Below, piece by piece: positions 37,559-55,099 of a DNA stretch of 64,000 nt (positions are counted from its first letter, which is position 1; each line of letters starts with the position of its first letter). The notes beneath the pieces are model-generated. The model was not told the DNA's origin, did no database searches, and saw only the letters and a program-made list of their open reading frames with translations. Source of the DNA: Muribaculaceae bacterium (lineage in GTDB: Bacteria > Bacteroidota > Bacteroidia > Bacteroidales > Muribaculaceae). Made by a program: the position numbers and the translations under genes. The stretch is from positions 1 through 64,000 of the forward strand of contig JAEETL010000004.1 of the NCBI GenBank assembly GCA_016290325.1. The letters are read 5' to 3'.

Positions 37559-39733
37559 ATGAAAATGACTAAACGACTTGGCATGATGCTGCTCATCACG
37601 TTGATGATGTTGCCCGCAATGGCACAGCAGCAGTTTACGCTCGAGGACTTGAACTTTGGCGGAACAAATTACCGAAACATGATTCCCAAGAACCGCTCGC
37701 TCGTCTGGTGGGGCGATCAGTTGATCCATTTCTCAAACAGGGCCGATACTTGCTGGACCGTTAACCCCGCAACGGGCAAGGAGAAACTGTTGTTTACCCT
37801 TGAACGGCTTAACAAACGGGCCGGCTTGACCGATTTGGAGCGCATAACGACAGTGACCTCGTTCCCATATCCCGATCAGCCGCTGGCGATGGCCTACAAT
37901 TCCCAGAATGAGCGTTTGCTCATCAACTTCAAGACGGGCAAGGTGGTGTGGCGCCAACCCTTGAACGGCTATCAGGGCAGCGAGTGGAACAAGCAGAGCC
38001 GTGCCAACGCTTATGTTGATAACGATAACCTGTACGTCATCGATGGCGCTGGAAACAAGCGTCAGGTGACAAGTGACGGCTCGCGCGATTTGGTCTACGG
38101 TCAGAGCGTGCACCGCAACGAGTTCGGCATTGACGGCGGCCTGTTCTGGAATCCTCAGGGCACCCGCCTGGCGTTCTACCGCATGGATCAGAGCATGGTG
38201 ACCGACTATCCCTTGATTACCGTTCCCGAGCTAGACGACAGCGCCCATGTGATTGCTACTCCCGCTCCCGAGAAATACCCCATGGCGGGTCAGACCTCCC
38301 ATCTGGTGTGGGTCGGTGTGCTGGATATGGCTACGGGCGACACGGTTTATCTCAAGGCCGGAGATCCCACCGATCGCTATTTCTCCAATATCTCGTGGAA
38401 CCCCGATGGAAACATCGTTTACATGATGGAGGGCAACCGCGACCAGAACGTGGTGGACCTGGTGGCCTATGATGCTGTAACAGGTAAACGCATCAAGACG
38501 CTTTACCACGAGGCGCATCCCAAGTATGTCGAGCCGCAGCACCCCATCACATTCCTGCCCTGGGACAAGGAGAAATTCCTCCTGTGGAGCGAGAAGGACG
38601 GTTACAACCACCTCTACCTCTATGACACCGCTGGCAAGCAGGTGAAGCAACTCACCAGCGGCCAGTGGGTGGTGATGGACTTGCTGGGATTTGATGTTGA
38701 CAAACAGTCTGTTATTATTTCGGCCAATGCCGATAATCCCATTCAGCAGAACCTCTACCGCGTTGACGTTGCCACGGGCAAGATGACCCGCATCGACGAG
38801 GGTGGCAAGGGTTGGCATAGCGGCCGCCTGAGCGATAGCGGCCGTTGGCTCGTTGACTACTACCAGGAGCCCGATGTGCCCCGTAATATCGCTATCGTGG
38901 ACACCCGCGCTAACAAGCAAATGCGCTATTTCACTGCTCCCGATCCTTGGGAAGGCTATACCGTGCCCGAGTATCGTTGCGGCACCATTAAGGCGGCCGA
39001 CAACAGCACCGACCTGTATTACCGCATGGTGATGCCCGTGGGCTTTGACCCCGCTAAGAAGTATCCCACAGTGGTCTATGTCTATGGTGGTCCTCATGCC
39101 CACAACGTGGACGCGCGCTGGCACTGGGGCAGCCGCAGTTGGGAGACCTACATGGCTCAGCGCGGCTATCTGCTTTTCATCCTTGACAATCGTGGCAGTG
39201 AGAACCGCGGCCGCGACTTCGAGCAAGCCACTTTCCGCCACTTGGGTCAGGTCGAGATGCAGGACCAGATGCGCGGTGTGGACTTCTTGCGCACGCTCAA
39301 CTATGTCGATACAGCGCGCTTGGGCGTGCACGGCTGGAGCTTTGGCGGTTTCATGACCATCAGCCTGATGACCAACTATCCCGACGTCTTCAAGGTGGGT
39401 GTCGCCGGTGGTCCTGTCATCGACTGGAAGTGGTATGAGGTGATGTATGGCGAGCGTTACATGGACACCCCGCAGACCAACCCCGAGGGATATGCCGAGT
39501 CCAGCCTCATCAATAAGGCTAAGGACCTCAAGGGCCGCCTCCAAATCATCATCGGCCTTAACGATCCGACCGTCCTTCCCCAGCATGCTTACAGCTTCTT
39601 CAAGGCCTGCATCGCCGCTGGCACCCAGCCTGACTTTTACGTCTATCCTGGCCAGGGTCACAACATGATGGGCCATCAGAGCGTCCACCTCCACGAGCGC
39701 ATCACCCGCTACTTCGACGACTACCTGAAATAA
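37559..39733 (+). CDS. dpp4: Dipeptidyl-peptidase IV (S9B), secreted
   Basis: A 724-residue protein with signal peptide (MKMTKRLGMMLLITLMMLPAMAQ), an eight-bladed-type propeller domain (about 40-480), and a prolyl-oligopeptidase catalytic domain with nucleophile Ser in HGWSFGGFM, Asp in GLNDPTVLP and His in GQGHNMMG. It removes dipeptides (Xaa-Pro/Ala) from peptide N-termini in the periplasm, feeding peptide use. This suits the amino-acid fermentation genes downstream. Monocistronic with a good terminator. Confidence 0.92.
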   Translation: MKMTKRLGMMLLITLMMLPAMAQQQFTLEDLNFGGTNYRNMIPKNRSLVWWGDQLIHFSNRADTCWTVNPATGKEKLLFTLERLNKRAGLTDLERITTVTSFPYPDQPLAMAYNSQNERLLINFKTGKVVWRQPLNGYQGSEWNKQSRANAYVDNDNLYVIDGAGNKRQVTSDGSRDLVYGQSVHRNEFGIDGGLFWNPQGTRLAFYRMDQSMVTDYPLITVPELDDSAHVIATPAPEKYPMAGQTSHLVWVGVLDMATGDTVYLKAGDPTDRYFSNISWNPDGNIVYMMEGNRDQNVVDLVAYDAVTGKRIKTLYHEAHPKYVEPQHPITFLPWDKEKFLLWSEKDGYNHLYLYDTAGKQVKQLTSGQWVVMDLLGFDVDKQSVIISANADNPIQQNLYRVDVATGKMTRIDEGGKGWHSGRLSDSGRWLVDYYQEPDVPRNIAIVDTRANKQMRYFTAPDPWEGYTVPEYRCGTIKAADNSTDLYYRMVMPVGFDPAKKYPTVVYVYGGPHAHNVDARWHWGSRSWETYMAQRGYLLFILDNRGSENRGRDFEQATFRHLGQVEMQDQMRGVDFLRTLNYVDTARLGVHGWSFGGFMTISLMTNYPDVFKVGVAGGPVIDWKWYEVMYGERYMDTPQTNPEGYAESSLINKAKDLKGRLQIIIGLNDPTVLPQHAYSFFKACIAAGTQPDFYVYPGQGHNMMGHQSVHLHERITRYFDDYLK

Positions 39734-39756
39734 TATATTCTTATTAAAAAGCTTTT

Positions 39757-39802
39757 AAAGCGGGGAAAAAAGTGCCGTTGGGTACTTTTTCTCCGCTTTT
39801 TT
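39757..39802 (+). terminator. Intrinsic terminator of dpp4
   Basis: AAAGCGGGGAAAAAAGTGCC (39757-39776) pairs, with a few mismatches, with GGTACTTTTTCTCCGCTTT (39781-39799), 4-base loop, followed by TTT. Confidence 0.8.
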
Positions 39803-39833
39803 GCTGGCAAATCAAGGAAAAGCATTATCTTTG
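39800..39833 (+). promoter_or_regulatory. Promoter upstream of the rod-shaped RNA
   Basis: TTTG (39800-39803), 22-base spacer, TATCTTTG (39826-39833). Start near 39840. It lies just behind the dpp4 terminator, and no coding frame follows for 340 bases. Confidence 0.6.
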
Positions 39834-39839
39834 CCCTGT

Positions 39840-40128
39840 TCCTGTGAATGTCATCTTTTGTGGTGATGGAAGCATGGAGCAGACATTTTTTTACGGCGTT
39901 ACTTGACGCTTTGTTTTGACGGTTCGGAATCTGGCAGTTCCACAACTAATTGTCAAAGACAAGGTAGCGGTTGACGCCCATTGGATGTGTATTGTCCGCC
40001 AAGTTTGGCGAACAGATACATATCGGCGTGGGCTTCGGCGTTGCTCGTTCTGACAATTAGGGCTATGCCAGAGCCTCGAACCGTGAGACGAGTAACAAGA
40101 GAACTCCCCACGTCGTTTCGTTTTTTTG
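39840..40128 (+). ncRNA. ssrS: Candidate 6S-like RNA (long rod with central bubble)
   Basis: Nested pairings build one long rod: ACGGTTCG/CGAACCGT (39919-39926 with 40077-40084), CTGGC/GCCAG (39931-39935 with 40067-40071), CTAATTGTC/GACAATTAG (39946-39954 with 40052-40060), an open bubble (39955-39973 opposite 40030-40051), ACGCC/GGCGT (39974-39978 with 40025-40029), GATGTGTAT/ATACATATC (39984-39992 with 40016-40024) and a CGCCA/TGGCG tip. The 3' bubble strand can form a small GC-UUCG-GC hairpin. A terminator follows (GAGACGA/TCGTTTC, 40085-40091 with 40113-40119, then seven Ts). Closing stem, large central bubble and terminal stem are the 6S architecture. The rod is about 166 nt; the 5' end may be near 39840 or nearer the rod (a small GCGT/ACGC hairpin with T tract, 39894-39915, lies between). 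6S identity is inferred from shape. Confidence 0.55.
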
Positions 40129-40178
40129 TGTTAACATGCTTGAATTTTGGGAGTTATAGGGCAAAAAGGATTAGTATT

Positions 40179-40706
40179 ATGAAAAAGTTTCATTTTTTAG
40201 TATTGTTAGTGATGTTGGCTACCCCATTATGGGCGGCTGCTGATGATTTTGAACGTGGCGATGTGGACCAAAGTGGTACAGTAGGCATTGATGATGTGAC
40301 TTGTCTTGTTGATTACCTGCTGTCAAATGAATGGCCAAAAGGCCCATATGACGAAGGTTACTGGGTCGTGATAAATACAATCGATGGCCCCGAATACATT
40401 CCATTAAATCCGAGTTACGATGGCAGATATTGTGCGGCTATTGATGTCATTTATCCTATCTTTTTATACGCTTGTCAGTTCCATTACAGGATTAACGGAG
40501 TGGATTATGGCCCTGATCGTTATATAACCGAACCTGTAGTTGGTAAGACATACAGGAACCCTGTAAAGCCATGTAGAAATAACTTCATATTAAAGGTTGA
40601 TGATAATGAACTCATCTCTTACTGTTCTTACTGTTTTGGTCTTGGAATTGATGAAGATAATAATTATTATGCCTATTTAGAAAAAGGGGGCTGGGCTCAT
40701 CCTTAA
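40179..40706 (+). CDS. Small secreted protein with single dockerin-like calcium loop
   Basis: A 175-residue product with signal peptide (MKKFHFLVLLVMLATPLWAAA) directly followed by one dockerin-type half-repeat, GDVDQSGTVGIDDVTCLVDY. The rest is Tyr/Cys-rich beta-type sequence I do not recognise. The start at 40179 is set by the signal peptide; open sequence upstream is the RNA gene. It is clearly lower in GC than its neighbours, suggesting recent acquisition. It is the second dockerin-like secreted protein in the window. No obvious promoter besides read-through from the RNA. Confidence 0.6.
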   Translation: MKKFHFLVLLVMLATPLWAAADDFERGDVDQSGTVGIDDVTCLVDYLLSNEWPKGPYDEGYWVVINTIDGPEYIPLNPSYDGRYCAAIDVIYPIFLYACQFHYRINGVDYGPDRYITEPVVGKTYRNPVKPCRNNFILKVDDNELISYCSYCFGLGIDEDNNYYAYLEKGGWAHP

Positions 40707-42142: not shown

Positions 42143-42793
42143 ATGAACAAACAAATCACATTGGAACAAGCCGTCGAGAAAGTGCAGGACGGTATGACAA
42201 TTATGTTTGGCGGTTTCTTGGGTAACGGCAGTGCCACCCAGATTATTGACGCCATTGTAGCTAAGGGTGTTAAAGACTTGACAATTATTGCTAACGACAC
42301 GGCCTATGACGAGGTCGCTCACGGCAAGCTGGTCAGCAACCACCAGGTAAAAAAAGCCATCGTGTCTCACACGGGCACTAACAAGCAGACCGCATTGCAG
42401 AAGAATGAGGGCACCCTCATCGTGGAATACGTTCCCCAGGGCACCCTGGCCGAGCGCATCCGTGCGGCAGGTGCAGGTTTGGGCGGCGTGCTGACCCCGA
42501 CAGGCCTTGGCACCATCATGGCCGATGGCAAGCAGATCGTGAACGTTGACGGCAAGGACTTCCTGCTGGAGAAACCTCTCAAGGCTGACATCGCTTTCCT
42601 GCGCGCCAACATCGTTGACGAGTTTGGTAACATGGTCTTCCTGGGTACTACCAACAACTTCAACCCGCTGATGGCAACTGCTGCCGACTATGTGGTTGTT
42701 GAGGCTGAGAAGCTGGTTCCCGTTGGTGAGATTGCTCCCGAGCACGTTCACGCTTCTGGTATCTATGTTGATGGCATCTATGTTGAGAAGTGA
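42143..42793 (+). CDS. atoD: Acyl-CoA:acetoacetate CoA-transferase, alpha subunit
   Basis: A 216-residue class I CoA-transferase A subunit: MTIMFGGFLGNGSATQIIDAI near the N-terminus (the GG(F)xGxG CoA-binding loop) and VEYVPQGTLAERIRAAGAG. With AtoA (51542-52201) it moves CoA from butyryl-CoA to acetoacetate, releasing butyrate in lysine fermentation. Unusually, its partner gene lies about 9 kb downstream at the other side of the kam genes. First gene of the cluster, followed by a TTAGGC-type repeat. Confidence 0.92.
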   Translation: MNKQITLEQAVEKVQDGMTIMFGGFLGNGSATQIIDAIVAKGVKDLTIIANDTAYDEVAHGKLVSNHQVKKAIVSHTGTNKQTALQKNEGTLIVEYVPQGTLAERIRAAGAGLGGVLTPTGLGTIMADGKQIVNVDGKDFLLEKPLKADIAFLRANIVDEFGNMVFLGTTNNFNPLMATAADYVVVEAEKLVPVGEIAPEHVHASGIYVDGIYVEK

Positions 42794-42840
42794 GGTTTTA
42801 GGCCTTAGGCTTTAGCTATTAGGCTCTAGGCAAAGAAACC
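42794..42840. repeat. TTAGGC-type repeat, atoD-kal junction
   Basis: Degenerate tandem units (TTTTAGGC, CTTAGGC, TTTAGC, TATTAGGC, TCTAGGC) directly after the atoD stop codon. Same motif family as at 44193, 53866, 55100 and 55976. Confidence 0.6.
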
Positions 42841-42891
42841 TTAATCACAACTTAATAACAAAGACTTAAAACTAAATACTTAATACTAAGA

Positions 42892-43284
42892 ATGGAATAC
42901 AAGACAATGATCAGACTGCGCATGAGCGCAAAGGATGCCCACTACGGTGGTAATCTGGTTGATGGTGCCCATATGGTTCACCTGTTTGGCGACGTGGCTA
43001 CCGAGCTGTTGATTATGCGTGACGGTGATGAAGGCCTGTTCTGTGCCTATGACAACATCGAGTTCCTGGCTCCCGTTTATGCCGGTGACTTTATTGAGGC
43101 TGAGGGTTGGATTGACCGTGAGGGCAACACCTCTCGTCACATGGTGTTTGAGGCCCGCAAGGTCGCTAAGGCCCGCCCCGACATCTCGGACTCGGCTGCC
43201 GATATCCTCGATGAGCCCATCGTGGTTTGCCGCGCTTCGGGCACATGTGTAACTCCTAAAGATTGCCAACGCAAGAATAAATAA
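42892..43284 (+). CDS. kal: 3-aminobutyryl-CoA ammonia-lyase
   Basis: A 130-residue hotdog-fold protein ([55 protein letters not shown]), matching Kal of lysine-fermenting bacteria. It removes ammonia from L-3-aminobutyryl-CoA to give crotonyl-CoA, linking the amine part of the pathway to Bcd. It stands directly before kce, its substrate supplier. Confidence 0.9.
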
Positions 43285-43340
43285 TTATAGGCATCAAGGC
43301 CCTTAAAGGCCCTAGAGACCTTAAGGCCCTTACCAGCCAG
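43285..43340. repeat. AAGGCCCT-type repeat, kal-kce junction
   Basis: Units AAGGCCCTT, AAAGGCCCTAG, AAGGCCCTTA alternate in this 74-base gap and can pair with each other (AAGGCCCTT against AAAGGCCCT is partly self-complementary). Confidence 0.5.
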
Positions 43341-43358
43341 ATAACCAGAAACTAAAAA

Positions 43359-44192
43359 ATGGACAAACTGATTATTACCGCCGCTATTTGCGGTGCCGAG
43401 GTTACCAAGGAGCAGAATCCTAACGTGCCCTATACCGTTGAGGAAATCGTGCGCGAGGCCAAGTCGGCTGTCGATGCTGGTGCTGCCATCGTTCACCTGC
43501 ACGTGCGCTGGGACGACGGTACGCCCACCCAGGACCGTGGCCGTTTCCAGGAGTGTGAGGAAGCCATCCTCAAAGTGTGCCCCAATGTCATCCTCATCCC
43601 GTCGACTGGCGGTGCTGTGGGCATGACTCCCGACGAGCGTCTGCAATCGACCGACACCACGCCGCTGCCCGAGATGGCAACCCTCGACTGCGGTACTTGC
43701 AACTTCGGTGACGAGATTTTCGACAACACCATGCCCACCATGCGCGCCTTTGGCAAGCGCATGATTGAGCGCGGCATCAAGCCCGAGTATGAGTGCTTTG
43801 AGATGGGTCACCTCGACACCATCCTGACCATGGCCCGCAAGGGAGAAGTCCCCGGCAACCCCATGCAGTTCAACTTCGTGCTGGGCGTTCCCGGCTGCAC
43901 CCCCGCTACCGTGGCCAACCTGTGCTGGCTCGTTAACGGCATCCCCGCTGGCTCCACTTGGACAGTGACCGGCGTTGGCCGTCATGCTTTCCCGATGGCT
44001 GCTGCCGCTATCGCCATGGGCGGTAACGTGCGCGTGGGCTTCGAGGACAACCTGTACCTCTCTAAGGGCGTGCTCGCCAAGAGCAACGGTGAACTGGTCG
44101 AGAAGGTGGTGCGCATCGCCAACGAGTTGGGCCGTCCCATCGCCACTAGCGATGAGGCCCGCGAGATCCTGGGCTTGCCCAAGCGTAACTAG
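43359..44192 (+). CDS. kce: 3-keto-5-aminohexanoate cleavage enzyme
   Basis: A 277-residue BKACE-family enzyme with zinc ligands in VHLHVRWDDG and a Glu in VRVGFEDNLY. It condenses 3-keto-5-aminohexanoate with acetyl-CoA, giving L-3-aminobutyryl-CoA and acetoacetate. Full length and with all family landmarks (MDKLIITAAICGAEVT; PSTGGAVGMTPDERL). Confidence 0.95.
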   Translation: MDKLIITAAICGAEVTKEQNPNVPYTVEEIVREAKSAVDAGAAIVHLHVRWDDGTPTQDRGRFQECEEAILKVCPNVILIPSTGGAVGMTPDERLQSTDTTPLPEMATLDCGTCNFGDEIFDNTMPTMRAFGKRMIERGIKPEYECFEMGHLDTILTMARKGEVPGNPMQFNFVLGVPGCTPATVANLCWLVNGIPAGSTWTVTGVGRHAFPMAAAAIAMGGNVRVGFEDNLYLSKGVLAKSNGELVEKVVRIANELGRPIATSDEAREILGLPKRN

Positions 44193-44250
44193 GCTTTAGC
44201 TATTAGGTTTTAGGCTTTAGCTATTAGGCTTTAGGAATACTTTTTAGAAA
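44193..44250. repeat. TTAGGC-type repeat, kce-kdd junction
   Basis: Two near-identical TAGGCTTTAGCTATTAGG units followed by further TTTTAGGC/TTTAGC copies, beginning within the kce stop codon region. All in one orientation. Confidence 0.6.
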
Positions 44251-44296
44251 ACAATAAAATAACAATAATCGTTTAACAATTAAACCAATTACAACA

Positions 44297-45370
44297 ATGC
44301 AGAAACACGGAAATAGATTCGGTACCCACCGCGTGATCGAACCCAAGGGCGTTCTTCCCCAGCCCGCCAACAAGCTGGACAATAACATGGACGAGATCTA
44401 CGACAATGAGATCCTCATCGATGTACAGACCCTGAATATTGACTCGGCATCGTTCACCGACATCCACAACTATGCCAAGCAGCAGGCCAAGGACCCCAAC
44501 AATGAGGCCGAGGTCTTGGAGGAAATCAAGAAGGAGATGCTCCTCAATGTTGAGTTGCAGGGCAAGCACCGCAACCGCCGCACTGGCTCGGGCGGTATGC
44601 TCCTGGGTAAGGTAGAGAAGATCGGTGATGCCCTCAAGGGCAAGATCGATTTGCAGGAGGGCGACCGCATCGCTACCCTCGTGTCGTTGTCACTGACCCC
44701 GCTGCGCATCGACGAGATCCTCGAGATCCGCGCCGACGTTGACCAGGTGGACATCAAGGGTAAGGCTATCCTGTTCGAGAGCGGTATCTATGCCAAGATT
44801 CCTAACGACATGCCCGAGAAGCTCGCTTTGAGCGCACTCGATGTCGCTGGTGCTCCCGCCCAGACCGCCAAGTTGTGCCAGTATGGCCAGAACGTTGTTG
44901 TCCTGGGTGCAGGTGGCAAGAGCGGTATGCTTTGCTGCTACGAGGCTAAGAAGCGCGTAGGCGTCACCGGTAAGGTAATCGGCCTTGCCAACAGCCCCAA
45001 GTCAACCCAGCGCATCAAGGACCTCGGCTTCTGTGACGTTGTCGAGAGCGTTGCCGGCATGACTCCCGTTGAGGTTTACGAGTTGGTTTACAAACTGACC
45101 GACGGCAAGATGGCCGACACCACTATCAACTGTGTGAACGTGCCCGATTGCGAGATGACCGCTGTGCTGTGCACCAAGGATGATGGCATCGTTTACTTCT
45201 TCTCGATGGCCACCAGCTTCACCAAGGCAGCCCTGGGTGCTGAGGGTATCGGTGCTGACGTGAACATGATCATCGGTAACGGCTACACTAAGGGCCATGC
45301 CGACTTCACCTTGCAGGAGCTGCGCGAGTGCCCCGAGCTGCGCAAGATCTTTGAGGAACTCTACGCTTAA
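44297..45370 (+). CDS. kdd: L-erythro-3,5-diaminohexanoate dehydrogenase
   Basis: A 357-residue NAD(P)-dependent dehydrogenase. N-terminal part MQKHGNRFGTHRVIEPKGVL matches Kdd; Rossmann segment QNVVVLGAGGKSGMLCCYEA (about 198-217). It oxidatively deaminates 3,5-diaminohexanoate to 3-keto-5-aminohexanoate, the substrate of Kce, yielding NAD(P)H. kamA follows after 20 bases. Confidence 0.93.
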   Translation: MQKHGNRFGTHRVIEPKGVLPQPANKLDNNMDEIYDNEILIDVQTLNIDSASFTDIHNYAKQQAKDPNNEAEVLEEIKKEMLLNVELQGKHRNRRTGSGGMLLGKVEKIGDALKGKIDLQEGDRIATLVSLSLTPLRIDEILEIRADVDQVDIKGKAILFESGIYAKIPNDMPEKLALSALDVAGAPAQTAKLCQYGQNVVVLGAGGKSGMLCCYEAKKRVGVTGKVIGLANSPKSTQRIKDLGFCDVVESVAGMTPVEVYELVYKLTDGKMADTTINCVNVPDCEMTAVLCTKDDGIVYFFSMATSFTKAALGAEGIGADVNMIIGNGYTKGHADFTLQELRECPELRKIFEELYA

Positions 45371-45390
45371 TCTCCATTTATCATCCTATT

Positions 45391-46671
45391 ATGGCTGAAT
45401 CAAGAAGAAAACAAATGTTTCCCGATGTCACCGATGAACAGTGGAATGACTGGAAATGGCAGGTGAAAAACCGCATCGAGACACTCGAGGACCTCAAGAA
45501 GTATGTGAGCCTTACCGCCGAGGAGGAAGAGGGCGTGAAACAAACCCTCAAGACCCTGCGCATGGCCATCACGCCTTACTACCTGAGCCTCATCAATCCC
45601 GATGACCCGCACGATCCCGTGCGCCGCCAGTGCATCCCCACCGGTCTGGAAACCCATCAGGCAGCTGCCGACCTGCTCGACCCGCTGCATGAGGATGAGG
45701 ACTCGCCCACGCCGGGCTTGACCCATCGTTATCCCGATCGCGTGCTGTTCCTCATCACCGACATGTGCTCGATGTATTGCCGCCACTGCACCCGTCGCCG
45801 CTTTGCCGGTCAGACGGACAACGAGTGCGGCATCGATCGCATCGAGAAGGCGCTGGAGTACATCCGCAACACGCCTACCGTGCGCGACGTCCTGCTCTCG
45901 GGCGGTGATGCCCTCATGGTGAGCGACAAGCGCTTGGAATACATCATCTCGGAATTGCGTAAGATTCCTCATGTGGAAATCGTGCGCCTGGGTACCCGCA
46001 CCCCCGTGGTTTGCCCGCAGCGCGTGACCCCCGAGTTGTGCGACATGTTGAAGAAGTATCATCCCATCTGGATCAATACCCACTTCAACCATCCCAACGA
46101 GATCACGCCCGAGAGCACCCGTGCCTGTGAGATGCTGGCCAACGCCGGTATCCCCTTGGGCAACCAGAGTGTGCTCCTGCGCGGTGTGAACGACTGCGTG
46201 CATGTGATGAAGCACCTCGTGAATGACCTCGTGAAGATCCGCGTGCGTCCTTACTATATCTACCAGTGCGACTTGTCGATGGGTCTGGAGCATTTCCGCA
46301 CTCCCGTCAGCAAGGGTATCGAGATCATCGAGGGCCTGCGCGGCCACACCAGCGGCTATTGCGTGCCCACCTTCGTGGTGGATGCTCCCGGTGGTGGCGG
46401 CAAGACGCCTGTTATGCCCCAGTACGTGATCTCGCAGTCGCCGGGTAGGGTAGTGCTGCGCAACTTCGAGGGCGTGATTACCACCTACACCGAGCCCACC
46501 GAGTACCACACCGAGTGCAACTGCCCCGAGTGCCAGGCTGCACGCAAGCAGGAGCAGGTGGCTGCCGACAAGGCCGTGGATGGTGTGATCTCGCTGCTTG
46601 AAGGCGAGCGCATGAACATCGAGCCCGCGCGCTTGAAACGCCACGAGCGCAACGAGAAACGCAACCAGTAA
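45391..46671 (+). CDS. kamA: Lysine 2,3-aminomutase
   Basis: A 426-residue radical-SAM/PLP enzyme. Radical-SAM cysteines occur in MCSMYCRHCTRRRF (about 126-139), the PLP lysine in DAPGGGGKTPVMPQ (about 333), and a C-terminal zinc site in ECNCPECQAARK. It converts L-lysine to L-beta-lysine, first step of the pathway. The C-terminus beyond about 400 is a basic helix (LKRHERNEKRNQ). Confidence 0.96.
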   Translation: MAESRRKQMFPDVTDEQWNDWKWQVKNRIETLEDLKKYVSLTAEEEEGVKQTLKTLRMAITPYYLSLINPDDPHDPVRRQCIPTGLETHQAAADLLDPLHEDEDSPTPGLTHRYPDRVLFLITDMCSMYCRHCTRRRFAGQTDNECGIDRIEKALEYIRNTPTVRDVLLSGGDALMVSDKRLEYIISELRKIPHVEIVRLGTRTPVVCPQRVTPELCDMLKKYHPIWINTHFNHPNEITPESTRACEMLANAGIPLGNQSVLLRGVNDCVHVMKHLVNDLVKIRVRPYYIYQCDLSMGLEHFRTPVSKGIEIIEGLRGHTSGYCVPTFVVDAPGGGGKTPVMPQYVISQSPGRVVLRNFEGVITTYTEPTEYHTECNCPECQAARKQEQVAADKAVDGVISLLEGERMNIEPARLKRHERNEKRNQ

Positions 46672-46690
46672 AAAATCAGTGTTGGAGACA

Positions 46691-46718
46691 GTGGAGACGC
46701 GCCTCGGCGTGTCTCCAC
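46691..46718. repeat. GTGGAGACGCGC palindrome between kamA and kamB
   Basis: 12-bp stem GTGGAGACGCGC (46691-46702)/GCGTGTCTCCAC (46707-46718) with one G-U pair and CTCG tetraloop; no T tract, so more likely an mRNA processing or stability hairpin or a REP-like repeat than a terminator. Confidence 0.6.
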
Positions 46719-46740
46719 ATCGCCAACAAGATGAGCCGAG

Positions 46741-47757
46741 GTGCCTTTCATTAATGACATATTGAAGTATAGCAGCCTGTCCATCGTTGGACTGGAGAAA
46801 AACACGGGCAAGACCGAGTGTCTCAAGTATGTGCTCGACCGGTTGCCTGTCAAGACCAAACGGATAGCTGTCACTTCAATCGGCATTGATGGGGAAACGG
46901 TGGACCAGGTGACACGCACCCAGAAACCCGAGATTGTCCTTCGCGAGGGCATGTACTTCGGCACTAGTGAGATGCATTACCGCCAGCGCAGACTGGTCTC
47001 GGAACTCATCGACGTCAGCGACGAGAGTACATCGCTGGGAAGGGTGGTCACCGCCAAGGCGCTCACGGGAGGTAAAATCCTGCTATCGGGACCTTCCTCG
47101 GGCAGCAGCCTCAAGCGCTGGATGGGCAGTATGGGCCAATATGGCATCGACCTGGTGATTATCGATGGCGCGCTCTCGCGCATGAGTTCGGCATCGCCCG
47201 CTGTGAGCCAGTCGATGATTTTGGCGACAGGTGCGGCCTACTCGGCCAACATCAGCACCCTCGTGAGTAATACTGCCCATGTGGTGGATCTGGTGAATCT
47301 GGATCTCACGGCTGAGGCTAACATGAGGATGCTGGCACCGCTGGAGCATGGTGTTTGGTTTATCGACACCGATGGTGTCCTGCATGACCTGAACATGCTG
47401 TCGTCGCTCTCCCAGGACATCCGTTTCGAGGGCATGGAGAATTGCGCCACCCTTTATGTCGCAGGGGCATTGGTTGACAGTTTTCTTGAGAAGGTGCGCC
47501 AAAACAAGCACTTGAGGCAGACCGAGATTGTCGTGCGTGACTTCACCAAGATTTTTGTCTCGCCGCAGCAATTCAAGCTGTTCCTCAAAGCAGGTGGACG
47601 CGTCAGTGTCCTGCAAAAGAGCAAACTCATCGCTGTCACCGTCAACCCGACCTCGCCAAGTGGTTACGTCCTTGATTCCGACACCTTGTGCGGTAAACTC
47701 ACCGAAGCCATCGGGCTTCCTGTGTATGATTTGTTAAAGAGTAAAAAATGCAATTGA
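46741..47757 (+). CDS. kamB: Lysine 5,6-aminomutase reactivase subunit KamB
   Basis: A 338-residue P-loop protein: SIVGLEKNTGKTECLKYVL (Walker A near residue 20). The rest matches the KamB protein conserved beside kamC and kamDE in lysine fermenters; current annotation treats KamB/KamC as a reactivase of the B12-dependent 5,6-aminomutase, though I know of no direct proof for this homologue. GTG start; the nearby ATG at 46731 is out of frame. It overlaps kamC by ten bases, implying translational coupling. Confidence 0.8.
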   Translation: MPFINDILKYSSLSIVGLEKNTGKTECLKYVLDRLPVKTKRIAVTSIGIDGETVDQVTRTQKPEIVLREGMYFGTSEMHYRQRRLVSELIDVSDESTSLGRVVTAKALTGGKILLSGPSSGSSLKRWMGSMGQYGIDLVIIDGALSRMSSASPAVSQSMILATGAAYSANISTLVSNTAHVVDLVNLDLTAEANMRMLAPLEHGVWFIDTDGVLHDLNMLSSLSQDIRFEGMENCATLYVAGALVDSFLEKVRQNKHLRQTEIVVRDFTKIFVSPQQFKLFLKAGGRVSVLQKSKLIAVTVNPTSPSGYVLDSDTLCGKLTEAIGLPVYDLLKSKKCN

Positions 47758-49118
47758 AGAATATTATAGATTCACCTTGCGGTATCCGCTATATGCTCGA
47801 TCAGCTGGATTTGCAGTCGGGCTTTGCACGCCGCTGGCTGCTCGACTCGCCCATGATGACCACGGGCGACGAGATTGCGGTGAACTATGAGGTTCTTCGT
47901 CGTTTTTACGACTTCGTTCAACGGGTTGACACGACCTATATCGATACCTTGTGCCACAAGTTGTGCGGACTGAAGGATATCCGCACGACAATCAGTAACT
48001 TATCCCGCAAGGCGACTCTCGACGACATCGAGTTGTTTGAGGTCAAGCACCTGGCTATGCTGGGAACCTATGTGGCTAAGTTGATGAGGCAGCATGGTAT
48101 GGACGGCGTGATTGGCATTCCCGACATGGATGAGGTCATCAATATCCTTGATCCTGACGGACTCAGGATTGCCACATTTTATATCTATGACTCCTATAGC
48201 GAGCCATTGAAGGACCTGCGCAACCAGATGCGTCAGCATCCCGAGCAGCAGGACGAGTTGCTCTTAAAGGCCAATGAGATTGAAATGGCCGTTAGGGAGG
48301 AATTGAGCACAAAACTGCATCATTTTGCCGGCACCATCGAGCAAGCCCAACTGGCTTTGGCTCAAATTGATGTGAACTTGGCTAAGGCGATGCAGATGCA
48401 ACACATGGGATTGAATTTTCCCACAGTTTCCAGCGATGGGGCGAGCCGCTATCTAGCCATGTTCCATCCCCAAGTCAAAGCCGCGCTCGAGAACCGCGGC
48501 AAGGCGTTCCAGCCGGTGGATATCACCTTTGGGCTGGAGCCCACCCTCATCACGGGTGCCAACATGGGTGGCAAGACCGTGGTGTTGAAGACATTGACCC
48601 TGTGTCAATACCTGTTCCAATTTGGATTTGGCATTCCGGCCTCAAGTGCCGCGATTGCACTGAAAGACGATATACATTTCTGCATCGGCGATGACCAGTC
48701 AGTGGAAAAAGGTCTGTCGTCGTTTGCTGCTGAGATGAAACACATCGATGCCGTCATCAAGGCATCACGCGAGAACAGAAAACTATTGGCGTTGATTGAC
48801 GAGCCTGCACGCACCACCAATCCCACCGAGGGAGCCGCACTGGTGACCGCCTTGCTGCGTGTGCTGGCAGGCAGGGACATGAGCCTGGTCATGACGACGC
48901 ACTATGATATAGAGCCGGGCGATGCCCGTTGCCTGAGGGTTAAGGGCTTCGTTGACGGCGAGATGGACTATGCGCTGGTCGAGGTACAGGACGGCGAGGT
49001 GCCCCACGAGGCACTCAATATCGCCCAGGCCCTGGGTATCGACAGCGAGTGGATCAACAAGGCACGAGACCTGCTCCAGCATGGCGGCGCGCCTATACAA
49101 CAGAGTGACAATCATTGA
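47748..49118 (+). CDS. kamC: MutS-like ATPase, KamC
   Basis: A 456-residue protein with the MutS ATPase domain (TGANMGGKTVVLKTLTL, about 262-278, Walker A; LLALIDEPARTTNPTEG Walker B-type; TTHYDIEPG) but no mismatch-binding domain. The N-terminal half is helical and family-specific. KamC is always linked to kamDE and is annotated as the ATPase of a lysine 5,6-aminomutase reactivase. Its MutS likeness should not be read as DNA mismatch repair. Confidence 0.82.
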   Translation: MQLKNIIDSPCGIRYMLDQLDLQSGFARRWLLDSPMMTTGDEIAVNYEVLRRFYDFVQRVDTTYIDTLCHKLCGLKDIRTTISNLSRKATLDDIELFEVKHLAMLGTYVAKLMRQHGMDGVIGIPDMDEVINILDPDGLRIATFYIYDSYSEPLKDLRNQMRQHPEQQDELLLKANEIEMAVREELSTKLHHFAGTIEQAQLALAQIDVNLAKAMQMQHMGLNFPTVSSDGASRYLAMFHPQVKAALENRGKAFQPVDITFGLEPTLITGANMGGKTVVLKTLTLCQYLFQFGFGIPASSAAIALKDDIHFCIGDDQSVEKGLSSFAAEMKHIDAVIKASRENRKLLALIDEPARTTNPTEGAALVTALLRVLAGRDMSLVMTTHYDIEPGDARCLRVKGFVDGEMDYALVEVQDGEVPHEALNIAQALGIDSEWINKARDLLQHGGAPIQQSDNH

Positions 49119-49137
49119 TACTATATACTATAACACT

Positions 49138-50694
49138 ATGCAAAAGAGCAAGTTAGGATTAAATTTCGAAAAAGTGGAATATGCCCGCGGATTGGCTAAA
49201 GGCATCGCCGAAGATGTCCAGTCATTTGTGGAGCAATATACCACGGTAGCTGTCGAGCGCACCTTGTGCCGCTTGATGGGTATCGACGGCGTGGACGATA
49301 ACGACGTGCCGTTGCCCAACGTGATTGTGGAGGCCCTGAAAGACAAGGGCGTGCTCAATGAGGGTGCCCTGTTCTTCATCGCTAATGCCATGATCCAGAC
49401 GGGCTTAAAGCCGCAGGAGATTGCCGAGAAAGTCGCTGCCGGCGAGTTGGACATCACTAAGGTCGTAACTACCGACCCCAAGCAAATTGCTGCTGCATTG
49501 CAGCCTGTCATCGACGAGAGCATGACGCGCATACGCACACGTCGCGCGCGTCGTGAACACTATTTAGAGACCATCGGCGAGGGACCTAAGCCTTATCTCT
49601 ACATCATCGTGGCAACCGGTAACATCTATGAGGATGTTGTGCAGGCTCAGGCAGGAGCCCGCCAGGGTGCCGATGTGATCGCCGTGATCCGCACGACGGG
49701 TCAGAGTCTGTTGGACTACGTGCCCTTTGGCGCGACGACCGAGGGCTTTGGCGGCACTTTCGCTACTCAGGAGAACTTCCGCATCATGCGCAAGGCGCTC
49801 GATGAGGTAGGCGAGGAGCAGGGCCGTTACATCCGCCTGTGTAACTACTGTTCTGGTTTGTGTATGCCCGAAATCGCCATCATGGGCGCTTTTGAGGGAC
49901 TGGATGTGATGCTTAACGATGCCCTCTACGGCATCTTGTTCCGCGACATCAACATGCAGCGCACGCTTATCGACCAGTACATGAGCCGCATTATCAACGG
50001 CTTTGCCGGCGTCATCATCAACACGGGTGAGGACAACTACCTCACCACCGCCGATGCCGTAGAGGCTGCCCACACGGTGCTTGCCTCGGACCTCATCAAC
50101 GAGCAACTCGCGCTCATGGCCGGCTTGCCCGAGGAGCAGATGGGTCTAGGACACGCCTTTGAGATGGATCCCATGTTGGAGAACGGTTTCTTGTTGGAGC
50201 TCGCTCAGGCGCAGATGACCCGCGAAATCTTCCCCAAGGCTACACTGAAGTACATGCCCCCCACGAAATTCATGACGGGCAACATCTTCCGTGGACATAT
50301 TCAAGACGCGCTGTTTAACATGATCGGTATCTGGACCCATCAGGGTATCCAGTTGTTGGGTATGCCCACCGAGGCTATCCACACGCCCTTCATGAGCGAT
50401 CGTTACCTCTCCATCGAGAATGCCAAGTACATCTTCAACAACATGAAGAGCATTGGCGAGGAGATGGAGTTTGTTGAGGGCGGCATCTGCCGCAACCGTG
50501 CCAAGGAGGTGCTCGAGAACACCATCAAGCTGCTCGAAGACATCACCAAGGAGGGTCTGTTTACTGCCCTGGAGAAGGGTATCTTTGGCGACGTGAAGCG
50601 TCCCAAGAATGGCGGTAAGGGTCTGGCAGGTGTCACCATGAAGGGTGAGAACTACCTGAACCCGTTTGTGGAACTGATGAAAGGTAAACGTTAA
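49138..50694 (+). CDS. kamD: Lysine 5,6-aminomutase, alpha subunit
   Basis: A 518-residue protein of the D-lysine 5,6-aminomutase alpha family (MQKSKLGLNFEKVEYARGLA; TIGEGPKPYLYIIVATGNIYEDV). It holds the TIM barrel that binds adenosylcobalamin and PLP with the beta subunit, and turns beta-lysine into 3,5-diaminohexanoate. The ATG at 49138 was chosen: any longer start would lie inside kamC. Confidence 0.95.
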   Translation: MQKSKLGLNFEKVEYARGLAKGIAEDVQSFVEQYTTVAVERTLCRLMGIDGVDDNDVPLPNVIVEALKDKGVLNEGALFFIANAMIQTGLKPQEIAEKVAAGELDITKVVTTDPKQIAAALQPVIDESMTRIRTRRARREHYLETIGEGPKPYLYIIVATGNIYEDVVQAQAGARQGADVIAVIRTTGQSLLDYVPFGATTEGFGGTFATQENFRIMRKALDEVGEEQGRYIRLCNYCSGLCMPEIAIMGAFEGLDVMLNDALYGILFRDINMQRTLIDQYMSRIINGFAGVIINTGEDNYLTTADAVEAAHTVLASDLINEQLALMAGLPEEQMGLGHAFEMDPMLENGFLLELAQAQMTREIFPKATLKYMPPTKFMTGNIFRGHIQDALFNMIGIWTHQGIQLLGMPTEAIHTPFMSDRYLSIENAKYIFNNMKSIGEEMEFVEGGICRNRAKEVLENTIKLLEDITKEGLFTALEKGIFGDVKRPKNGGKGLAGVTMKGENYLNPFVELMKGKR

Positions 50695-50713
50695 AGCATA
50701 GGAGACCAGACAC

Positions 50714-51502
50714 ATGAGCGAAGGTTTATATAGCATGGAAGCTAAGGATTTTGACAAAACCTTAGACTTCACCAAGATTAAGCCCTATGGCGACACGATG
50801 AATGACGGTAAGGTGCAGATGAGTTTCACCCTGCCTGTCCCCTGTGGTGCCGAGGCGGTAGAGGCCGCTAAACAGTTAATCCGCAAGATGGGTTTTGAGA
50901 ACCCCAGCGTGGTGTTCTACAAGGAACTTACACCGGGTTTCACCTTCTTCAACTGCTATGGCAGCTGCACCCACACGGTCGATTATTCTACCATCTATGT
51001 CCCCAAGGTCGAGAGCGACACCATGGACATGTATGAGACCGATGAGTACATCAAGGAGAACATCGGACGCAAAATCGTCATCGTTGGTGCTTCGACAGGT
51101 ACCGATGCCCACACCGTGGGCATTGATGCCATCATGAACATGAAGGGCTATGCCGGTCACTATGGACTGGAGCGTTACGAGATGATTGAAGCCTATAACC
51201 TGGGCTCCCAGGTGCCTAACGAGGAGTTTATCGCCAAGGGCATTGAACTCCATGCCGACGCACTCATCATCTCACAGACTGTAACCCAAAAGGATGTTCA
51301 CATCCACAACCTCACCAATTTCATCGAGCTGATGGAGGCCGAGGGCCTGCGTGACAAGATGATTTGCTGCTGTGGTGGCGCGCGCATCACCCATGAACTG
51401 GCCAAGGAGCTTGGTTTTGACGCCGGCTTTGGCATGAACACCTATGCCGACGACGTGGCCTCGTTTGTCGTGCAAGAGATGGTGAAAAGAGGAATGAAAT
51501 AA
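50714..51502 (+). CDS. kamE: Lysine 5,6-aminomutase, beta subunit
   Basis: A 262-residue B12-binding subunit: GTDAHTVGIDAIMNMKG with the DxHxxG cobalamin motif (about 133-138), followed by AGHYGLER; the GSCTHTVDYSTIYVPKVE region before it carries PLP-lysine candidates. Forms the active enzyme with KamD. An AGGAG sequence nine bases before the ATG is a rare clear Shine-Dalgarno for this genome. Confidence 0.95.
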   Translation: MSEGLYSMEAKDFDKTLDFTKIKPYGDTMNDGKVQMSFTLPVPCGAEAVEAAKQLIRKMGFENPSVVFYKELTPGFTFFNCYGSCTHTVDYSTIYVPKVESDTMDMYETDEYIKENIGRKIVIVGASTGTDAHTVGIDAIMNMKGYAGHYGLERYEMIEAYNLGSQVPNEEFIAKGIELHADALIISQTVTQKDVHIHNLTNFIELMEAEGLRDKMICCCGGARITHELAKELGFDAGFGMNTYADDVASFVVQEMVKRGMK

Positions 51503-51541
51503 CTTTTTAAAAACATAATTAATCTCAAATAAAGTACTATT

Positions 51542-52201
51542 ATGGAGAAAAACGAAATGAGAGAAGTCATCGCTAAACGTGCAGCCAAAGAACTGCATGA
51601 CGGCGATGTTGTGAACCTGGGTATCGGAATCCCCACAATGATTCCTAACTACCTTCCTGAAGGCGTTTCTGTAACCCTGCAGACCGAGAATGGTGCTATG
51701 GGTATGGGCCCGTCTCCCGCTCCCGGCGAGGAGGACAAGAACCTCATCAACGCTGGTGGTGGTGCCATCACCCTTAATCCCGGCGCATGCACCTTTGACT
51801 CGGCAACCTCGTTTGCCATCATCCGTGGCGGCCACGTGAACGTATCGTTCCTGGGCGCTTTGCAGGTTGATGAGAAAGGTAACCTCGCTAACTGGATTAT
51901 CCCCGGCAAGATGGCTCCCGGTATGGGCGGTGCCATGGACCTCGTGGTAGGTGCCAAGCGTGTGATCCTCACCATGGAGCACACCCAGAAGGGCGCTCCC
52001 AAGATCTTGAAAGAGTGCACGCTGCCGCTGACCGCTGCCGGACAGGTAAATATGATTATCACCGAGATGGGTGTCATGGACATCACCCCCGAGGGTATCG
52101 TCCTGCGCGAGCTGCATCCCGAGTTCACCGTCGAGCAGGTACAGGCCGCTACCGAGGCTAAGCTCATCATCTCGCCCGACCTGAAACCCATGGACATCTA
52201 A
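51542..52201 (+). CDS. atoA: Acyl-CoA:acetoacetate CoA-transferase, beta subunit
   Basis: A 219-residue class I CoA-transferase B subunit with the catalytic glutamate in LQTENGAMGMGPSP and INAGGGAITL. Partner of AtoD at the cluster start; together they activate acetoacetate with butyryl-CoA. Confidence 0.95.
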   Translation: MEKNEMREVIAKRAAKELHDGDVVNLGIGIPTMIPNYLPEGVSVTLQTENGAMGMGPSPAPGEEDKNLINAGGGAITLNPGACTFDSATSFAIIRGGHVNVSFLGALQVDEKGNLANWIIPGKMAPGMGGAMDLVVGAKRVILTMEHTQKGAPKILKECTLPLTAAGQVNMIITEMGVMDITPEGIVLRELHPEFTVEQVQAATEAKLIISPDLKPMDI

Positions 52202-52217
52202 TTCACCACTTCAAGTC

Positions 52218-52994
52218 ATGGATTACGAGTTCTTGAAGATTGAGCGGCAGGACGGCATCACCGTGATGAAAATCTCGGCGCCTAAGTCCCTGAATGCACT
52301 CAATTCAACCATCTTGAAAGAGATTGATAGCTTCGTGAGCGGTTTGGACAACACCACGCGCGTACTCATTATTACGGGCGATGGTGAGAAGTCCTTTGTC
52401 GCTGGTGCCGATATCTCTGAGATGGCTCACCTCAACGAGCCCCAAGGCTTTGAGTTCGGCCGCCTGGGCGCACAGGTTTTCCGCAAGATCGAGACCCTGC
52501 CCATCCCCGTCATCGCCGCTGTTAACGGCTTTGCCCTGGGTGGCGGTTGCGAGCTGGCCATGGCCTGCGACATCCGCATCGCTTCGGTGAAGGCCAAGTT
52601 CGGCCAGCCCGAGGTAGGCTTGGGCATCATTCCCGGTTTCTCGGGAACCCACCGTTTGCCCAAACTCATCGGCCAGGGCTATGCCAAGGAGATGATCTAC
52701 ACGGGTAAAGTCATCCGTGCCGACGAAGCCTTGCGCATCGGTTTGGTCAATGCCATCTATGAGCCTGAGGAACTGATGGACAAGGCGCTCGAGATGGCCG
52801 CCATGATGCTCAAGAATGCTCCCGTGGCCATCCGCTTGGCCAAGCAGAGCATCAACGAGGGCTATGACCTCGATGCCGACGGTGCTATCGCGTTGGAGAA
52901 CAAGCTCTTTGGCCAGTGCTTTGCCACCAAGGACCAAAAAGAGGGCATGGACGCTTTCCTGAACAAGCGCAAAGCTGATTTTATCGGAGAATAA
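52218..52994 (+). CDS. crt: Enoyl-CoA hydratase (crotonase)
   Basis: A 258-residue crotonase: [12 protein letters not shown] (oxyanion hole), [17 protein letters not shown], and catalytic Glu in [13 protein letters not shown]. It hydrates crotonyl-CoA or, in reverse, dehydrates 3-hydroxybutyryl-CoA. Kal already makes crotonyl-CoA in lysine breakdown, so Crt with Hbd probably serves a second route from acetoacetyl-CoA to crotonyl-CoA. Confidence 0.92.
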
Positions 52995-53028
52995 ACATAA
53001 ATCATTAAATATAACAGAATCAAAACTT

Positions 53029-53865
53029 ATGAAAATTTGTGTAATTGGAACCGGAACAATGGCTAAAGGCATTGTCAAAGCCTTTGCTGCCAAGATGCCC
53101 GTTGTAATGAAGAGCCGCACCCAAGAGAGCCTCGACAAGGCTATGGCTTCAATCTCTAAGGGCTACAACAAGCTCGTCGAGAAGGGTAAAATCACCGAGG
53201 ACGCCATGAAGGCCATCCTGGCGAACATCACCACCACGACCGACTATGCTGACTTCGCCGATGCTGACCTCGTTATCGAGGCTGCTGTCGAGAACATGCA
53301 GTTAAAGAAGGAAGTCTTCATGGAGCTTGACAAGATTTGCAAGCCCGAGACCATCTTCGCCACCAACTCGTCGTCGCTCTCGATCACCGAGATCGCCGCT
53401 TGCACCAGCCGCCCCGCTCAGTTCATCGGCTGCCACTTCTTCAACCCCGCCGACCGCATGGCGCTCGTTGAGGTTATCAAGGGCCAGCTCACCAGCGAGG
53501 AGACCGCAAAGTGCATCGTGGACCTGACCACCGAAATCGGCAAGACCCCCGTGCCCGTTAACGAGGCTCCTGGTTTTGTCGTTAACCGCATTCTCATCCC
53601 CATGATCAACGAGGCTGTAGGTATCCTGGCCGACGGTATTGCCAGCGCCGAGGACATCGACAAGTGCATGATGCTGGGTGCTAACCACCCCATGGGCCCG
53701 CTCGCATTGGCCGACCTCATCGGTAACGACGTGAACCTCGCCATTATGGAGGTGCTCTACAACGAGTTTGGCGATCCCAAGTATCGTCCTCACCCGCTGC
53801 TGCGCAAGATGGTTCGTGCCGGCCTCCTGGGCCGCAAGACCGGCGAAGGCTTCTATAAATATTAA
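53029..53865 (+). CDS. hbd: 3-hydroxybutyryl-CoA dehydrogenase
   Basis: A 278-residue protein: NAD-binding [19 protein letters not shown], catalytic [13 protein letters not shown] and [14 protein letters not shown] (His-Glu pair), then the C-terminal dimer domain. Reduces acetoacetyl-CoA to 3-hydroxybutyryl-CoA. Follows crt by 34 bases; a palindromic TTAGGC repeat separates it from bcd. Confidence 0.93.
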
Positions 53866-53959
53866 TTTTAGCTCTTAGGTGTCAGGTGTTAGGCATTGGT
53901 GGCATCTGCGCCCCTAAAGCCTAAAACCTGAAGCCTAAAGCCTAATCATTTAAAAGAAT
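53866..53959. repeat. Palindromic TTAGGC/GCCTAA element, hbd-bcd junction
   Basis: First half: TTAGGTGTCAGGTGTTAGGC-type units. Second half: CCTAAAGCCTAAAACCTGAAG-type units, the reverse complement of the first. Centre GGTGGCATCTGCGCC. The element fills the 94-base gap and can fold into a long imperfect hairpin in mRNA. Confidence 0.65.
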
Positions 53960-55099
53960 ATGGATTTTAGCTATTCAAAGACTGAACAATTGTTCCTGCA
54001 GATGGTTCGCTCGTTTGCAGAGAACGAGGTAAAGCCTCTCGCCGCCGAGGTCGATGAGCAGGAGCGCTTCCCCCTCGAGACAGTCCAGAAAATGGGCAAG
54101 CTCGGCATGATGGGTATTCCTGTTCCCAAGCAGTATGGCGGTGCAGGCGGTACCGTACAGATGTATATTATGGCTGTTGAGGAACTCTCACGCGTGTGTG
54201 CAACCACTGGCGTTGTCCTCTCGGCCCACACCTCGCTGTGTATCGCTCCCATTATGGAGAACGGTACCGAGGAGCAAAAAATGAAATATTTGCCCAAGCT
54301 CGCTTCGGGTGAGTGGATTGGCGCCTTTGGTCTTACCGAGCCCAACGCCGGTACCGATGCTGCCATGCAGCAGACAACCGCTGTTGACGCTGGTGACCAC
54401 TGGGTGCTCAACGGCTCCAAGATTTTCATCACCAACGCTTCCTATGCCAACGTGTTCATCGTTATGGCAATGACCGACAAGTCGCTGGGAACCAAGGGTA
54501 TTTCGGCCTTCATCGTCGAGAGGGATATGCCTGGCTTCTCCATCGGTAAGAAGGAGTTGAAGATGGGTATCCGCGGCAGCGCTACCTGTGAGTTGATTTT
54601 CGAGAACTGCATCGTTCCCAAGGAGAACCTCCTCGGCCCGCTCGGCAAGGGCTTCTCTATTGCTATGAAGACCCTCGATGGCGGTCGCATCGGTATCGCT
54701 TCCCAGGCCCTCGGCATCGCTCAGGGCGCTATGGACGAGACCGTGAAGTATACCAAGGAGCGCAAGCAGTTTGGCCGCGCTATCGCCAAGTTCCAGAACA
54801 CCCAGTTCCAGATGGCCGACCTCAAGACTAAGGTCGAGGCTGCCCGTCTGCTCGTGCGCAGTGCTGCCTGGAAGAAGGACATGGGCCTGCCCTACAGTGC
54901 CGATGCCGCTATGGCTAAGCTCTTTGCTGCCGAGACCGCTATGGAAGTGACGACCAAGGCCGTACAGTTCCATGGTGGCTATGGTTACACCCGTGAGTAT
55001 CCTGTTGAGCGCATGATGCGTGACGCTAAGATTACCGAGATTTACGAAGGTACGTCAGAGGTACAGCGCATGGTCATCGCCGGTCATTTATTTAAATAA
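53960..55099 (+). CDS. bcd: Butyryl-CoA dehydrogenase
   Basis: A 379-residue acyl-CoA dehydrogenase: AFGLTEPNAGTDAAM, FITNASYANVF, and catalytic glutamate in ITEIYEGTSEVQRMV. Adjacent etfBA indicate the Bcd-EtfAB complex reducing crotonyl-CoA to butyryl-CoA. Start matches the family (MDFSYSKTEQLFLQMVRSFA). Confidence 0.94.
   Translation: MDFSYSKTEQLFLQMVRSFAENEVKPLAAEVDEQERFPLETVQKMGKLGMMGIPVPKQYGGAGGTVQMYIMAVEELSRVCATTGVVLSAHTSLCIAPIMENGTEEQKMKYLPKLASGEWIGAFGLTEPNAGTDAAMQQTTAVDAGDHWVLNGSKIFITNASYANVFIVMAMTDKSLGTKGISAFIVERDMPGFSIGKKELKMGIRGSATCELIFENCIVPKENLLGPLGKGFSIAMKTLDGGRIGIASQALGIAQGAMDETVKYTKERKQFGRAIAKFQNTQFQMADLKTKVEAARLLVRSAAWKKDMGLPYSADAAMAKLFAAETAMEVTTKAVQFHGGYGYTREYPVERMMRDAKITEIYEGTSEVQRMVIAGHLFK

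Follow-up and report, generated by a model that had tools for sequence, protein, structure and literature searches.

The RNA encoded on the plus strand at 39840-40128 of the window (the whole stretch of 64,000 nucleotides analyzed here) is a member of a strongly conserved, pseudoknotted RNA family that appears not to have been described before. With somewhat more confidence than doubt, we read this family as a cis-acting transcription-attenuation leader RNA on accessory genes, which probably controls the passage of RNA polymerase into the gene. Most copies share a common layout of a promoter, a 5′ hairpin, a pseudoknotted core (median ~245 nt), a hairpin (P7) with a U-tract, a further hairpin (P8), and a same-strand gene, and our observations support the RNA structure, its covariation, the promoter, the U-tract, and the link in cis to a gene. 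Neither the window nor 12 homologous loci gave a match to any Rfam 15 family at gathering score, and no earlier description was found in full-text literature searches or Rfam 15; the motif may be among the thousands of RNAs predicted in human microbiomes by one study (PMC8040213). The initial annotation had considered the region a candidate 6S RNA and, failing that, an undescribed structured RNA, and it is this fallback that agrees with the lack of an Rfam 15 match and the covarying structure.

A BLAST search with 39800-40200 returned matches at E ≤0.001 in 20 of 61 genomes, including that of the window itself. From 26 copies (alignment A1, produced with MAFFT and with the registers of P4 and P6 set by hand) we built a covariance model, R1, of 236 positions. 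R1 identified two copies in the window's own genome. Within the genus, 29 of 40 genomes had copies, with a maximum of 12 per genome. Within the order, R1 matched 35 of 247 genomes, covering 29 of 174 genera; eight candidates were scored per genome there, and copy numbers are therefore minimum values. In a sample of the phylum, for which five candidates per genome were scored and copy numbers are again lower bounds, three of 395 genomes had a match: our own, another of the order, and one outside the order that was weak (7.6e-6). A pattern scan of genome contigs yielded at least 80 loci (of 120 stretches), 66 of which were confirmed by R1, two of them weakly (L167 and L116). Among the matches listed, 64 of these 66 loci bear Bacteroidales names (such as Prevotella, Bacteroides, Phocaeicola oris, Hallella mizrahii, Alistipes, Odoribacter, and Muribaculaceae, with two Candidatus names that were checked), and the other two are on metagenome-assembled contigs labeled Pseudoflavonifractor and Firmicutes, labels that may reflect mis-binning; the carriers are gut-type Bacteroidales. 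A pattern scan gave 13 loci in IMG/VR, one of which was confirmed by R1. This strong copy (L232, 393-627, 211 bits) is on contig 3300021319_000137, which is filed as viral, and by eye it heads a same-strand run that includes an Hsp70-like protein. Versions of 119-161 nt, which begin at model position 19, 20, or 31 and end at 206, were seen in genomes G115, G242, G245, and G048 from other families of the order and are possibly a reduced RNA that lacks P7. Two divergent copies were also observed in tandem (L099, 3476-3691 and 3915-4084), heading a single gene that encodes 1449 or more amino acids. For the family-wide tests described below we started from 135 matches (69 in set A2 and 66 in set A3) and dropped eight (L008, L116, L167, the short second match of L087, and four identical cores); three of the 127 remaining matches (L132, L136, and L168) had no flanks, leaving 124 copies with flanking sequence.

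The region had been described as a rod of nested helices with an internal bubble, and such a rod is indeed present at the stated positions, supported both by its folding energy and by covariation across copies. The minimum free energy of 39840-40128 is −113 kcal/mol, compared to −82.8 ± 4.7 kcal/mol for shuffled sequences (n = 200, z = −6.4, with no shuffle as good). The minus strand likewise folds better than shuffled sequence (z = −5.7). That the functional molecule is RNA from the plus strand is indicated by the types of mismatch in 66 related copies, in which G-U occupied 325 cells and A-C or C-A 128, with 249 other mismatches; on this count a DNA-level hairpin or a minus-strand RNA is less likely. 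The conserved core spans 39893-40112 (plus strand) and matches R1 with 198.5 bits and an E-value of 2.6e-58, the window copy itself being among the 26 copies from which R1 was built.

All core helices are on the plus strand. At the 5′ end of the core is the hairpin P1 (GCGT/ACGC, 39896-39909; 99.2% of cells paired, changes on both sides in three of four pairs), followed by P2, in which TTTGTTTTGAC at 39910-39920 pairs with GTCAAAGACAAGG at 39952-39964 (82.5% paired, both-side changes in nine of ten pairs). P2 is pseudoknotted with P4 and is absent from R1. P0 joins 39921-39926 to 40077-40082 (98.4% paired, both-side changes in all six pairs) and is followed by the hairpin P3 (GGAA/TTCC, 39926-39941), of which only 75.6% of cells are paired. 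The loop of P3 forms a second pseudoknot, PK3, between CTGGCA at 39931-39936 and TGCCAG at 40066-40071 (98.5% paired, both-side changes in five of six pairs). P4, formed by TAATTGTC at 39947-39954 and GACAATTA at 40052-40059, is 95.1% paired with both-side changes in eight of eight pairs, and it closes the bubble. Above it, the upper rod (P5/P6) at 39964-40044 has a variable apex: its P5a is paired in 100% of cells with no double change, and its P6 is 81.9% paired with double changes in five of six pairs. A pairing between the loops of P1 and P7 was also considered and was rejected, as it failed in several copies by eye. The 3′ strand of the bubble includes TCGTTC (40045-40050) in the window copy, and the small UUCG hairpin suggested for one bubble strand does not hold as a feature of the family, CTTCGG being present in 22 of 124 copies. 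The absence of a convincing coding frame agrees with the alignments, in which no common frame was apparent by eye, and with the covarying helices; on the same grounds a conserved protein frame appears unlikely. A TTG-started frame at 39981-40706 crosses part of the rod and enters the downstream ORF.

Covariation in homologs, which the initial annotation had proposed looking for, is pronounced. For 65 proposed pairs in the 66 copies of A3, 90.8% of cells were paired, compared to 76.5 ± 0.4% when the letters of the 3′ partners were shuffled, a control that is itself inflated by the relatedness of the sequences. Cells changed on both sides numbered 666 vs. 213 after shuffling, and the covariation score was 0.437 vs. 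0.176, falling below 0.1 when partners were slid by one to three columns. A3 was fitted to the structure of R1, which does not contain P2, P3, or the pseudoknot PK7, and two of its 66 rows (L177 and L128) are identical to copies used to train R1, so that A3 is not fully independent of the model.

The promoter predicted upstream of the RNA was located as TTTG-N22-TATCTTTG at 39800-39833 (plus strand), a pattern match that places TTTG at −33 and TATCTTTG at −7. Matches of this type occur ten times in the window vs. 0.84 expected, and the spacing between the two elements is ~2 nt longer in the window copy than the commonest spacing of the family. A sigma-70 scan gave sites solely on the minus strand (39730-39759). 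Of 124 copies, 102 carry a promoter of the TAnnTTTG type, which we take to be that of the Bacteroidales primary sigma factor, no more than 140 nt before the core (66 of the 102 at 60-80 nt), compared to 34 of 595 control windows. Conservation begins at the promoter: in 82 copies, the stretch 51-110 nt before it has a mean information of 0.07 bit. Transcription would start near 39840, at the edge of a 5′ domain (39840-39892, plus strand) whose minimum free energy fold contains a predicted hairpin at 39840-39878. The complementarity between the two halves of the promoter-to-core stretch was 14.0 across 83 copies, as against 12.65 ± 0.26 for permuted halves.

The core ends in the hairpin P7 (40083-40111), which is followed by a U-tract (40116-40127) and which we propose to be a terminator on the plus strand. 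An intrinsic terminator had been claimed for this end of the RNA: the terminator-like arrangement at 40083-40127 is present, while the hairpin itself is weak in the window copy (−4.0 kcal/mol), for which reason this copy may be leaky or decaying. The P7 loop is long for a terminator, and a simple scan limited to loops of 3-8 nt did not list P7; its sole site was P1 (39895-39910) followed by TTGTTTTGAC, one site being found vs. 0.7 expected. Across the family, at least six T in the eight bases directly after P7 were present in 112 of 124 copies, compared to 29 of 470 control places.

The bubble strand GTTGCTCGTTC (40040-40050) has its complement in the P7 5′ arm and loop (GACGAGTAAC, 40087-40096), and we propose this plus-strand pairing, PK7, as an antiterminator. 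In an alignment-free test its score was 23.4 vs. 22.07 ± 0.19 for permuted partners (n = 123), and an uninterrupted run of at least eight pairs from the bubble strand was found in 114 of 123 copies. In A3, PK7 is 98.1% paired with no double change, because the aligned columns are too conserved; double changes do occur in divergent copies, where GTTGCCGTCC pairs with GGACGGCAAC and TTGCTTATCC with GGATAGGCAA. The reach of PK7 into the P7 5′ arm was counted in 103 of the 123 copies, the other 20 having no recognizable motif. Its three bases were paired in 101, 102, and 101 of the 103, the third clearly above shuffles (one in 1000 reached it) and the first two too conserved to tell, and positions 4-5 of the extension were no better than shuffles in these copies. 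PK7 had a lower predicted energy than the P7 hairpin in all 98 copies scored (98 of the 123 copies with a core of at least 195 nt), with means of −17.4 and −9.9 kcal/mol, values that compare a free duplex to a hairpin and omit the costs of closing the pseudoknot and opening P5a. The GUUGC of the bubble strand can also pair with GCAAC in P5a, a sharing that is suggestive only since the strand hardly varies. PK7 and the full P7 overlap in bases and the U-tract follows P7, an arrangement that resembles a terminator and its antiterminator.

Downstream of P7 is the hairpin P8 (40138-40162, plus strand), whose loop GGGAGTT (40149-40155) is complementary to AACTCCC (40102-40108) in the 3′ arm of P7. 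Among the 124 copies, 85 have a start codon at a distance of 35-150 nt; in these, the complementarity of the P7 3′ arm to the downstream stretch scored 15.8 in the native pairs and 13.2 ± 0.26 when permuted, and three other segments of the core had no such excess in the same type of test. The P7-complementary stretch is typically ~40 nt after P7. Stems of at least five pairs flank it in 54% of the 63 copies (of the 85) that scored 14 or more, vs. 29% of control segments, suggesting that it is often, and not always, the loop of a hairpin. In 66 comparisons within 12 genomes, a copy's own P7-P8 pair outscored the foreign one 51 times, and this preference is the main argument that the RNA probably acts in cis. 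Since P8 is synthesized after the decision at P7, it would come too late to affect termination there; our guess is that it serves translation or the read-through messages.

In 115 of 124 copies a same-strand, ATG-started ORF of at least 50 codons begins within 400 nt downstream, at 50-95 nt in 72 of the 115, and no such ORF was found within that distance in the other nine copies. Same-strand ORFs of at least 100 codons starting 35-150 nt downstream were found for 87 of 117 copies compared to 560 of 2340 random places (24%), and by the corresponding measure divergent upstream ORFs were found for 15 of 113. Both a conserved 5′ leader structure and a tight linkage to the gene, by which a riboswitch or attenuator would be recognized, were found. 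The window copy precedes a gene for a 175-residue protein (40179-40706, plus strand) that by eye begins with a signal peptide and a dockerin-like region and that had no Pfam match. The first downstream genes of 112 copies, selected by a simple ORF rule, have matches to 85 Pfam families, none of which was found in more than 14; the most frequent are BspA-type LRR_5 (14), LRR_8 (10), Big_2 (6), Dockerin_1 (5), and N6_Mtase (4). The recurring cargo is BspA surface proteins, dockerin proteins, and DNA methylases, and the downstream genes gave no hint of one common metabolite or shared pathway. PADLOC matches, which like the Pfam tally comprise the first 25 families listed, include type I, II, IIG, and III methyltransferases and kinases; such a match is not proof of defense, since a good number of them fall in general enzyme families, and four of ten hand-picked downstream proteins had none. 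The second copy in the window's own genome (L101) heads a type IIG restriction-modification gene. By eye, several copies among the contexts listed (L095, L066, L071, L075, and L098) head runs with LPP20/CsgG-like lipoproteins, which are not visible in the Pfam tally.

The locus of the window copy was compared with that of a relative. At the corresponding locus of genome G006 (L240), sequence homologous to the window from 41993 onwards begins ~75 nt after the upstream peptidase gene, and the 2.3 kb carrying the RNA, the gene it heads, and a second gene are absent. Judging from this comparison, the window copy is in an accessory segment, which was either gained here or lost in G006. Among 20 loci of relatives (L237-L256), L240 alone has a downstream neighbor like that of the window, the others providing no test; R1 found no copy in these loci, of which up to 1.5 kb after the gene was covered (166 and 707 nt in two of them). 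Elsewhere in the window, the translations at 42143-57084 resemble, by eye, a gene run for fermentation of lysine to butyrate, with CoA-transferase subunits, an ammonia lyase-like protein, a 3-keto-5-aminohexanoate cleavage-like enzyme, a lysine 2,3-aminomutase-like radical SAM enzyme, a MutS-like protein, lysine 5,6-aminomutase-like subunits, an enoyl-CoA hydratase, an acyl-CoA dehydrogenase, and EtfAB. A transposase-like ORF was seen by eye on the minus strand at 21520-22329.

From this anatomy we infer termination, switching, the direction of the on/off response, and a trigger, as follows. RNA polymerase would start at the TAnnTTTG promoter and transcribe first the 5′ hairpin and then the pseudoknotted rod, whose end could adopt either of two competing foldings. 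Capture of the P7 5′ arm and loop by the bubble strand (PK7) would keep the terminator from closing, and transcription would proceed into the gene; if the strand is instead held in the rod, its GUUGC paired with the GCAAC of P5a, P7 would close before the U-tract and transcription would stop, leaving an RNA of ~290 nt. After read-through, the P8 loop could bind the freed 3′ arm of P7, which might keep the read-through form open or shape the region before the start codon. Candidates for the trigger are a metabolite, a protein, or a state of the polymerase. Several observations sit uneasily with an attenuation leader: simple attenuation does not need the coevolution of P8 with the P7 arm, the P7 loop is long and the window P7 weak, PK7 has no double change in the aligned count, and nine of 124 copies are without a near ORF. 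Most riboswitch regulons share a pathway, which these downstream genes do not.

An alternative is a processive antitermination RNA, whose core would bind RNA polymerase, in the manner of put and EAR RNAs, and let it pass P7 and later terminators in long acquired operons. Large invariant core motifs, unrelated cargo, the position at the transcript start, and the multi-gene same-strand runs headed by several copies (among the contexts listed) are all in its favor, but the window copy heads a single short gene and neither RF01735 nor any other Rfam family was matched at gathering score, and we regard this interpretation as rather unlikely. We consider it improbable that the terminated RNA is itself the product and pairs with other messages as a trans-acting small RNA; it would have its own promoter and terminator-like end and be present in several copies, as observed, but the preference for the copy's own P8 and the position before a same-strand gene argue against it. 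A little less probable still is that the RNA marks the end of a mobile gene cassette, its hairpin being recognized as DNA or its RNA guiding insertion. The multiple copies, patchy distribution, unrelated cargo, and the relative without the entire 2.3 kb segment are what such a cassette would produce. Against it are the G-U bias toward plus-strand RNA and the start of conservation at the promoter and not further upstream. By eye no recombinase is constantly adjacent in the contexts listed (the L079 copy does have a transposase-like ORF upstream), the window copy had no blastn match in plasmid or phage collections, and R1 confirmed only one of the 13 IMG/VR loci noted above.

The identification as 6S RNA, which we rejected and to which we give almost no weight, was founded on the rod with a central bubble and the promoter, and the rod with an internal bubble is a true likeness to the 6S RNAs of RF00013 and RF01685. 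The 6S RNA is a near-universal housekeeping gene present in one or two copies. Unlike it, the family is patchy and multi-copy (35 of 247 genomes of the order, with several copies, and up to 12 in the genus), is linked to genes, and has a bubble strand complementary to its terminal hairpin. In 6S RNA an open bubble templates pRNA on RNA polymerase, and here the 3′ strand of the bubble is complementary to the loop of P7. When the RF00013 covariance model was run, none of 21 genomes matched while five of 14 control genomes did. With RF01685 (6S-Flavo), none of 41 genomes exceeded the cut-off and two of the 41, elsewhere in the order, had matches below it, a test that is weak because none of its 14 control genomes matched. 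In Bacteroides thetaiotaomicron, a 6S RNA with pRNAs has been reported (PMC7366714).

We consider that this ~290-nt RNA class deserves its own name, because its covariation is strong, it occurs in 29 of the 40 genus genomes, and it has no Rfam 15 match. Returning to the attenuation leader, the switch proposed for it is concrete and testable. A broader and more doubtful possibility is that the RNA is a general gate for horizontally acquired genes. It would then be one class of large pseudoknotted leader, nearly restricted to Bacteroidales as observed here and heading many unrelated genes that include defense and surface genes; its target would be RNA polymerase, or it would respond to a shared condition of the cell such as stress or phage attack, with the P7-P8 pairing tying each copy to its gene. 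If it is true that the RNA gates defense and surface genes, the immediate control of newly gained genes would be accounted for.

Among known systems, other structured motifs of the Bacteroidales in Rfam, such as Bacteroidales-1 (RF01693), have the host order in common with the family; unlike a member of these, neither the window nor the 12 homologous loci matched at gathering score. EAR (RF01735) and the HK022 put RNA are, like the family, cis-acting structured RNAs governing transcription into a downstream operon, and both act on the polymerase. In one table, epsC is listed as RF01735 (PMC2864571). The family differs from both in its lack of an Rfam match and in its layout of P7, PK7, and P8. 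A likeness in layout is also seen to transcription-attenuating riboswitches, for example the cobalamin riboswitch with its kissing loop, which are likewise 5′ leaders with a pseudoknotted domain and a terminator-like hairpin, the 5′ side of which has a possible pairing partner upstream; the family departs from these in its pathway-less cargo, its lack of a known ligand, and the additional pairing of the P8 loop with the 3′ arm of the terminator.
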